Notes under the pieces: model-generated
The model's input: the letters and a program-made list of their open reading frames with translations, nothing else
The model's database searches: none
What the model was told of the DNA's origin: nothing
Source of the DNA: Aspergillus flavus
Lineage: Eukaryota > Ascomycota > Eurotiomycetes > Eurotiales > Aspergillaceae
Assembly: GCF_009017415.1 (NCBI RefSeq)
Contig: NC_092409.1
Location: 434,001 to 498,000, forward strand
DNA: 64,000 nucleotides
Direction of reading: 5' to 3'
Position numbers and translations under genes: made by a program
Shown: in pieces, positions 60,321 through 64,000 of the stretch
How positions within the stretch are numbered: the stretch's first letter is position 1
How the letters are laid out: each line of letters begins with the position of its first letter

Positions 60321-60417
60321 AGACAAAGCGAAGGCACTGCATCCTGGGCTTTATATAATGATGATATAGACATTATTGACAAGATAAGACCGAAAACACG
60401 CAAAAACTAAAACAAAA

Positions 60418-60536
60418 ACATACAACAGGAGGGATTCGCTGGTGGTCACCCACCCAACTACTAACCTCCCGGCGTGTGGCTTAAGTACGGCTGAGCGGAC
60501 GGGAAGCCCTGTTCTCCACACCCTATGGTCGTATGT
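60418..60536 (-). rRNA. 5S ribosomal RNA
   Basis: A 119-nt match to fungal 5S rRNA on the minus strand. It starts ACATACGACCATAGGGTGTG and continues with the helix II/III region (GAACAGGGCTTCCCGTCCGC) and the internal control region TCAGCCGTACTTAAGCCAC. It ends with GGTGACCACCAGCGAATCCC and a terminal pairing to ATGT. 5' ACATACGAC... pairs with 3' ...TTGTATGT. A T-rich tract follows as pol III terminator. Dispersed single 5S genes are normal in Pezizomycotina. Confidence 0.95.
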
Positions 60537-62920: not shown

Positions 62921-63083
62921 ATGAAGGCCTTTTCCATCGTTGTTCTTCTCATGGGGTTGGGCATCGGAATGGCTGCACCCCCTTCCCCCCCTCAGGGTGA
63001 AAGCGACAACGTAGCAAGTAATCCCTCAAAGCGTTTACATACTTGGCTTTGTTCAGCTGTCAGTCCTAACTGTGTAATAGAAG
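62921..63083 (+). CDS. first exon of a secreted peptide precursor with a Lys-Arg processing site
   Basis: ATG at 62921. Residues 1-18 (MKAFSIVVLLMGLGIGMA) form a signal peptide. A Pro/Asn/Ser-rich spacer ends SKR at 36-38, a Kex2-type site. The sequence after it, LHTWLCSAVSPNCVIE, has two cysteines six residues apart. The exon ends in phase 1 at GAAG before GTATGT (63084-63089). Signal peptide, spacer, dibasic site and a short Cys-containing peptide is the design of fungal peptide pheromones and some RiPP precursors. It does not match the WCxxxGQxC alpha-factor core of aspergilli. The downstream structure is the microexon array. Confidence 0.7.
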
Positions 63084-64000
63084 GTATGTGGCTAGCCCTG
63101 CCGAAATACACTGCTAGCTGGATGCAGCGCTGACATGCCTTTAACGAAAGCTTCTAAGTGGGCGTTGTATACATTTTCTCGTTGATCGCAAATTTCTAAC
63201 ACTCACTAAAACTAACAGGCTGTAAGTCTCCAAAATCTCTATGAGCTAAATGCGGTCACATCATGATCTTAACATTTTCTTAGGGAGTAAGTAGCCCACC
63301 ATCCCCGGGACGAATCGCAAAATTGCTTGAGCTGACCTTGATTGACAAAATAGTTTGTGAGTACCATGTAGCCCTGCAGTCAGAAGCATTGAGGCTGATA
63401 CCAGATGATTGGTCAATACCAAAAGGATGTAAGTCATGTCTCCCTGCATGATTGAGAAAGAGATCATGGCTGACAAACTTTCACACGCATAGTTGGTGAG
63501 CACCCTTTGAAGAATAAAGGCTCGCTAAAATTAAGGTTAACCTGCTCGGTATTACAGGGTGTAAGCACCTCTCCTATGTGTTCCACAATACTTTAAAACT
63601 AACATTACTGTACAGCTTGTAGGTGCCATTAATATACTAGAGACGGGTTAATCCCTATCAACAGGGCTAATATGCCATTTCTTTTACATAGGATGTGAGT
63701 ACCCTGTTTCTTTCAGTTTAAAACGAAGAGATCTCTAACGACAATGCATGATATAGGTCGTGAGTCATATGTGCTATGAGGATGATTTACAGCTAAATAA
63801 AGAACCATTATTGACCACCAGAGCGTATAGATTGCGAGTGATGTTCTATCTACATTACAATAGTACAGAGCTAATCCTGCCTTAGGGAGTAAGTAGAATT
63901 GCGACATGAGAAATTCATGGAAGAATGATAGATGATAGCATAGCTGATACATGACACTGGGTTGGATAGCTTGTAAGTGGCTAGGTGAGATAGAATGTGA
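63084..64000 (+). other. array of twelve 3-nt microexons separated by complete introns, open at window edge
   Basis: Each unit is acceptor AG, three bases, then a GTRAGY-type donor. The three-base exons begin at 63219 (GCT), 63284 (GGA), 63354 (TTT), 63426 (GAT), 63493 (TTG), 63558 (GGT), 63616 (CTT), 63692 (GAT), 63757 (GTC), 63831 (ATT), 63886 (GGA) and 63970 (CTT). Introns 2-12 are 62, 67, 69, 64, 62, 55, 73, 62, 71, 52 and 81 nt. Each contains a CTRAY-like branch site before its acceptor. One donor is GC type (63834). Intron bodies are not similar to one another, so it is not a simple tandem repeat. Joined after exon 1 (phase 1) the frame meets TGA across the fourth microexon; the other two frames are open through all twelve. 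Confidence 0.8.

Follow-up and report, generated by a model that had tools for sequence, protein, structure and literature searches.

Near the 3' end of the window, by which is meant the whole 64,000-nucleotide stretch of Aspergillus flavus DNA analysed in the present work, the forward strand carries a chain of 15 consecutive units, each composed of an AG, three further nucleotides and a splice donor, which extends from 63081 to 64158 and runs past the window end into the sequence beyond it. The first-pass annotation had described "at least twelve" such 3-nt pieces behind a longer first exon, and all twelve (63219-63972) were recovered, each preceded by an AG and followed by a donor, although one of the donors, GTAGGT at 63619, is neither of the two forms, GTRAGY and GCGAGT, that had been assigned to them. 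The lower bound itself was borne out by three additional units: AAG at 63081-63083, ATT at 64096-64098 and GAG at 64156-64158.

Directly downstream of the chain, at about 64279-65501, lies a fatty-acid elongase gene (ELO, PF01151) whose start codon is apparently lost, and farther on come a reductase with a male-sterility domain and an MFS transporter. When the initial part of the elongase is taken as query, 99% of it matches an Aspergillus oryzae RIB40 protein at 100%; the A. oryzae protein has a different, upstream N-terminus. Of ten elongases from relatives, eight begin with MS at a common position and one with MA; the annotation of the tenth extends about 25 residues farther at the N-terminus. 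In this genome the start codon appears to have been lost, and intact copies exist in relatives in section Flavi. The notion that the chain is the 5' part of the elongase gene was rejected, since the elongases of the relatives mostly begin with MS at that same position. On the other side of the chain, a 5S rRNA gene (Rfam RF00001, 81 bits) occupies 60417-60536 on the minus strand, approximately 2.4 kb upstream of the putative micro-exon gene.

Predicted gene model and reading frame

The predicted model comprises 16 exons and 15 introns, all of the introns in phase 0, with a first exon, 14 one-codon exons and a short terminal exon. Exon 1 (62921-63013; 93 nt, 31 codons) begins with an ATG, encodes MKAFSIVVLLMGLGIGMAAPPSPPQGESDNV and ends at a GCAAGT donor at 63014; its product has an N-terminus that, as judged by eye, resembles a signal peptide, followed by a short proline-rich stretch. 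Intron 1 (63014-63080; 67 nt) combines this GC donor with a CTAAC branch site and a TAG acceptor, and leads to the one-codon exon AAG (K) at 63081-63083, which is followed by a GTATGT donor at 63084. The predicted one-codon exons that come next are GCT (A) at 63219-63221, GGA (G) at 63284-63286, TTT (F) at 63354-63356, GAT (D) at 63426-63428, which has an AAG acceptor, TTG (L) at 63493-63495, GGT (G) at 63558-63560, CTT (L) at 63616-63618, GAT (D) at 63692-63694, GTC (V) at 63757-63759, ATT (I) at 63831-63833, which has the GC donor GCGAGT, GGA (G) at 63886-63888, and CTT (L) at 63970-63972, the final one inside the window. Past the window end come ATT (I) at 64096-64098 and the terminal exon at 64156-64173, which reads GAGGCAAGTACAATGTAG (EASTM-stop) and opens with the unit GAG. 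The predicted spliced frame is accordingly MKAFSIVVLLMGLGIGMAAPPSPPQGESDNV-KAGFDLGLDVIGLI-EASTM-stop, a product of 50 residues without a cysteine, in which KAGFDLGLDVIGLI represents the chain residues K-A-G-F-D-L-G-L-D-V-I-G-L-I and the stop codon lies at 64171-64173.

The GCAAGT at 63014 is most likely the true donor of exon 1, as read from the sequence. It is of the weak kind, a GC donor with an A at position -1, and it brings exon 1 to an end in phase 0 and makes whole codons of the 14 exons that follow. A nearby alternative, GTAGCA at 63011, would also give phase 0 with an exon one codon shorter, and the weaker candidates at 62997 and 63018 would both give phase 1. The chain is free of stops throughout in phase 2 as well, a reading that would require another exon-1 donor. 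Because the frame is short and phase 2 is open too, an open frame is by itself weak evidence, and it is the phase of exon 1 that selects phase 0.

With the donor at 63014 every internal exon is a whole codon, and this strengthens the earlier proposal that any subset of the exons could be skipped without loss of frame. Skipping can never create a stop, because each one-codon exon is a sense codon; retention of an intron, in comparison, would meet an in-intron stop for 12 of the 15 introns. A skipping error would therefore go through as a shorter peptide, and a retention error would in most cases be ended by a stop. The predicted chain peptide contains two instances of the pattern G-[FLIV]-D-[FLIV], GFDL and GLDV (permutation p = 0.0014 for a pattern picked post hoc), and this repeat is possibly the trace of a duplication of a four-unit block.

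The introns had been given as 52-81 nt long, a range that holds for 13 of the 15; the other two, of 135 nt (63084-63218) and 123 nt (63973-64095, with 63973-64000 inside the window), each contain a degenerate unit. The one at 63151-63153 is a CTT with an AAAG acceptor and a donor-like hexamer that lacks the GT, and is probably an exon no more; it would divide the 135-nt intron into 67 and 65 nt. The other, beyond the window at 64030-64031, has the form CAAG-GC-GTAAGT, with a 2-nt unit in place of a codon, and would divide the 123-nt intron into 57 and 64 nt. When both are counted, there are 17 introns, all of them 52-81 nt long. These near-units are read, on the basis of their sequence, as worn units which would now be skipped, and with two of 17 unit positions degenerate the gene may be decaying. 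If the 2-nt unit were spliced in, the frame would be shifted after 64031 and the C-terminus altered. The 3' end is in addition ambiguous from the sequence, since the GAG at 64156-64158 is itself followed by a GC donor; the tails that lie 3' of an acceptor at 64198 have 24, at least 70 and 21 residues in the three frames.

Departure of the chain from chance expectation

The evaluation of the chain against chance relied on a scan for the pattern AG-N(0..9)-donor on both strands of the whole window and then of the sequence 3' of the window end. The donors accepted were GTRAGY, GTAGGT, GTATGT, GCGAGT and GCAAGT, a set chosen post hoc from the region and applied unchanged to the background. The background consisted of 23 stretches, namely 20 from elsewhere in the genome, the remainder of the window and two adjoining ones, and its 280,100 bases gave 55 AG-NNN-donor matches on the two strands. 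On this basis 0.117 units are expected in the 1,187 nt from 63014 to 64200, where 15 were found (Poisson 7e-27); the minus strand of the chain region contained no AG-NNN-donor unit in the same scan. Dinucleotide shuffling of the region, repeated 2,000 times, gave a mean of 0.21 units and a maximum of 3, compared to the 15 in the real sequence. The strict form YAG-NNN-GTRAGY occurs 10 times in the chain region, where 0.034 occurrences are expected from the background, and in the 64-kb window alone it has 10 matches, nine of them within the chain, compared to a mean of 3.2 and a maximum of 8 in shuffles of the window.

The distance from AG to donor is also strongly restricted. Eighteen pairs in the region have an AG and a donor separated by 0-9 nt, and in 15 of these the spacer is 3 nt; it is 0 nt in two and 2 nt in one, and spacers of 1 and of 4-9 nt do not occur. 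No hexamer of the donor set is left over in the region: the 17 present are the 15 unit donors, the predicted exon-1 donor at 63014 and the donor of the 2-nt unit. Of the 12 strict GTRAGY hexamers, 11 are likewise unit donors, and the one left belongs to the 2-nt unit. When the donor is defined more loosely, four to five hexamers in the region are not unit donors. The sequence AG-GGA-GTAACT, with GGA at 64174-64176, was considered as a sixteenth unit and excluded, as it fits only a looser donor.

A signal separate from the count of AG-NNN-donor units is provided by the enrichment of branch sites. A YTRAY branch site at a workable distance is present for all 15 unit acceptors, compared to 3,703 of 16,161 background YAG trinucleotides (23%; p = 2.5e-10), and the more restrictive CTRAY is found for 12 of the 15 compared to 1,819 of the 16,161, with TTRAY at the remaining three. 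For the twelve units known initially, a branch site is thus always present as had been claimed, but it has the claimed form CTRAY in nine and is TTRAY in three. The 30 candidate introns that served as a yardstick were filtered for canonical sites and are unvalidated. As a separate observation, RCC occupies intron positions +7 to +9 after six of the 15 unit donors, those of the units at 63354, 63493, 63558, 63616, 63692 and 64096.

Origin of the units and the search for other copies

The initial description had offered recent amplification as one way in which so regular an array might be maintained. Recent tandem amplification of the units is not supported, because no pair of introns scores above shuffled sequence: the score of the best pair was reached in all 60 of 60 shuffles. 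The mean score over intron pairs is raised, at 7.35 compared to 6.88 in shuffles (sd 0.12), and none of the 60 shuffles reached it. The raised mean speaks for some shared sequence; it is not counted as homology, because the branch sites were left in the introns compared. If the units did arise by duplication, the sequences suggest that the event is old, and that the splice signals were kept while the rest drifted.

Searches for a paralogue of exon 1 in the organism's own genome (37,736,778 bases in 8 contigs), conducted with both DNA and protein, each matched only the locus itself among the best candidates, which alone were scored, with common words skipped. In the 23 background stretches (280,100 bases) the only other chain-like arrangement is a single linked pair of units, and no third 3-nt unit was found within 6 kb of that pair. 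A model of two consecutive units, applied to 23 sequence sources, returned 17 rows, all at the chain locus; the lack of matches elsewhere carries little weight, since only five of the 12 pairs on which the model was trained are recovered by it over their full length.

In a search against 5.8 billion proteins the predicted peptide matched only the unspliced exon-1 frame, represented by four member sequences from 8 contigs, and a longer peptide bait had no match in the protein database at E values up to 10; the searches covered proteins of about 28-227 residues. They found no annotated protein containing exon 1, although the adjoining elongase is annotated in several relatives. From the 8 contigs behind the unspliced entries it would appear that DNA of other strains carrying the locus may exist.

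Interpretation and relation to known micro-exon genes

The interpretation that is probably correct is that the locus holds, in a member of the flavus/oryzae group of Aspergillus, to which laboratory and food strains belong, a micro-exon gene that codes for a small secreted peptide and would be spliced intron by intron. The anatomy of this gene can be read directly from the sequence; its splicing, translation, secretion and use are what we infer from that anatomy. The reading proposed at the outset, a chain of one-codon exons behind an exon resembling a signal peptide, therefore stands as the best one, with the boundary of exon 1 corrected.

Under this reading, each intron of 52-135 nt would be recognised as a unit (intron definition), its donor being paired with whichever branch site and acceptor lie closest. 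It is hard to see how an exon of 3 nt could accommodate simultaneously the acceptor machinery of the intron before it and the U1 of the intron after it, and adjoining introns would for that reason be removed one after another. Every splicing event would add one codon, and the outcome would be a prepeptide of approximately 50 residues. Since each exon is a codon, a skipped unit or a lost splice site would cost one amino acid only, and the design would allow the chain to grow, to shrink and to tolerate wear, of which the unit with the broken donor looks like an instance. Precedents for the individual steps have been reported: the 1-nt exon of CYP621A in Fusarium is spliced, with read support (PMC12940212), and for plant micro-exons the flanking introns are described as likely to be removed consecutively (PMC8831610).

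A related interpretation holds that the locus is a combinatorial generator of peptides, in which the one-codon exons would act as independent cassettes and up to 2 to the 14 peptides differing by single residues could be produced, the choice among cassettes being either regulated or left to the ordinary noise of splicing. As a description of the locus this is unlikely. Peptide diversity through skipping, which the initial description had proposed, is possible given the arrangement of the exons, and constitutive inclusion of all the units is at least as likely.

The remaining explanations differ in how much of the evidence they can accommodate. It is rather unlikely that the chain is a relic, a formerly working micro-exon gene which is now decaying in this lineage. 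Such a history would agree with the unit that has no donor GT and the one with a 2-nt exon, with the apparent loss of the start codon of the downstream elongase, which is intact in relatives, and with the absence of an annotated homologue from what was found in the protein database; but acceptor, branch site and donor are all intact at 15 of the 17 unit positions, even though no pair of introns exceeds shuffled sequence in likeness, whereas neutral decay of that extent should have broken most of the units, and the frame is open. A further explanation, which must be considered improbable, is a non-coding ratchet, in which the units would serve to remove 1.1 kb of intervening sequence stepwise and the 3 nt left over each time would be untranslated. 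Complex introns with consecutive splicing reactions do exist in fungi, among them the stwintrons (PMC7138796), but a ratchet leaves the uniformity of the spacer unaccounted for, since 1, 2 or 4 nt would do equally well and ratchet points need no spacer at all, and it does not explain why a frame resembling a signal peptide should be in phase 0 with the chain. The units, whose donor is complete and lies 3 nt past the AG, would leave 3 nt behind, which ratchet points and donor-type stwintrons do not. The uniform length of 3 nt instead favours coding, because the need to keep the frame explains 3 over 2 or 4, while a role purely in splicing or binding does not.

Very little probability attaches to the exon 1 of 163 nt that was originally proposed, in spite of the fact that the GTATGT at 63084 with which it would end is a good donor. 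An exon of this length consists of 162 nt of whole codons and one nucleotide more, so that the chain would be entered in phase 1 and read as GWI-stop, ending after three codons, with more stops further on; the exon would also contain within itself a further unit (branch CTAAC, acceptor TAG, codon AAG and donor), and neither the donor at 63014 nor the branch site and acceptor that precede 63081 would be explained. Least probable of all is the proposition that the chain arose by chance or is an array of protein-binding motifs resembling splice sites, against which stand the unit counts relative to background and shuffles as well as the separate enrichment of branch sites, and in favour of which nothing was found.

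The predicted structure can be compared with several known systems. The rule applied to micro-exon genes in tapeworms specifies at least seven exons, of which at least half are shorter than 70 nt and divisible by 3, and a run of at least four (PMC7653826); here 16 exons are predicted, among them 14 consecutive exons of 3 nt, and the structure as read would be classed accordingly. The micro-exon genes (MEGs) of schistosomes and tapeworms are described as signal-peptide genes in which series of tiny exons, mostly of lengths divisible by 3, permit in-frame skipping and are hard for gene finders (PMC10526429, PMC7653826), a layout that the gene predicted here resembles, with an N-terminus that looks like a signal peptide by eye. 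Their exons are reported as 6-81 bp long, with 15 bp the commonest (the abstract gives 3-81), in contrast to one codon each here, and their introns as 100 to almost 5,000 nt long, in contrast to 52-135 nt in the fungal gene. The bicycle genes of aphids are likewise putative secreted effectors with many micro-exons of the same phase (PMC9168663), but their internal exons are described as nearly all phase 2 and CYC motifs as the mark of their homologues, whereas the phase in the model preferred here is 0 and the predicted peptide has no cysteine, so that neither characteristic is shared.

The ultra-small exons compared here, two of the cases being from filamentous fungi (Fusarium and Dactylellina), are isolated or paired. 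The 1-nt exon of Fusarium CYP621A (PMC12940212) is a single one within a larger gene, the two 3-nt exons of lipS in Dactylellina (PMC5639578) are a pair in a larger gene and not a run, and the 3-bp exon of homothorax in Drosophila (PMC7392893) is isolated, again in a larger gene. The micro-exon of Xlr2 in Trichoderma (PMC11121469) is regulated and occurs in a filamentous fungus, but it is only one, in a transcription-factor gene. Fungal stwintrons share with the present chain the consecutive splicing across close splice sites, but are described as having one intron inside a splice element of another (PMC7138796), whereas the 15 units here have complete elements and do not correspond to the donor type. 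No run of 3-nt exons was recognised among the open-licence papers listed, which report isolated 3-nt exons and the one pair.

If the gene is spliced as read, single amino acids could be dropped from its product without loss of frame. With one intron per codon over 14 codons, the arrangement of introns would then be, to our knowledge, the densest. It would test the limits of intron definition in a case where the exons offer no binding surface, as well as how the order of splicing is set, and it would extend to a fungus the micro-exon-gene design of flatworms and aphids; were the combinatorial interpretation the true one, the locus would be a fungal parallel to the schistosome MEGs at the smallest possible grain. 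Exons of this kind are reported to be badly handled by gene finders and short-read aligners (PMC12940212, PMC8831610), a blind spot in which similar genes may be hidden in fungal genomes that are otherwise well studied.
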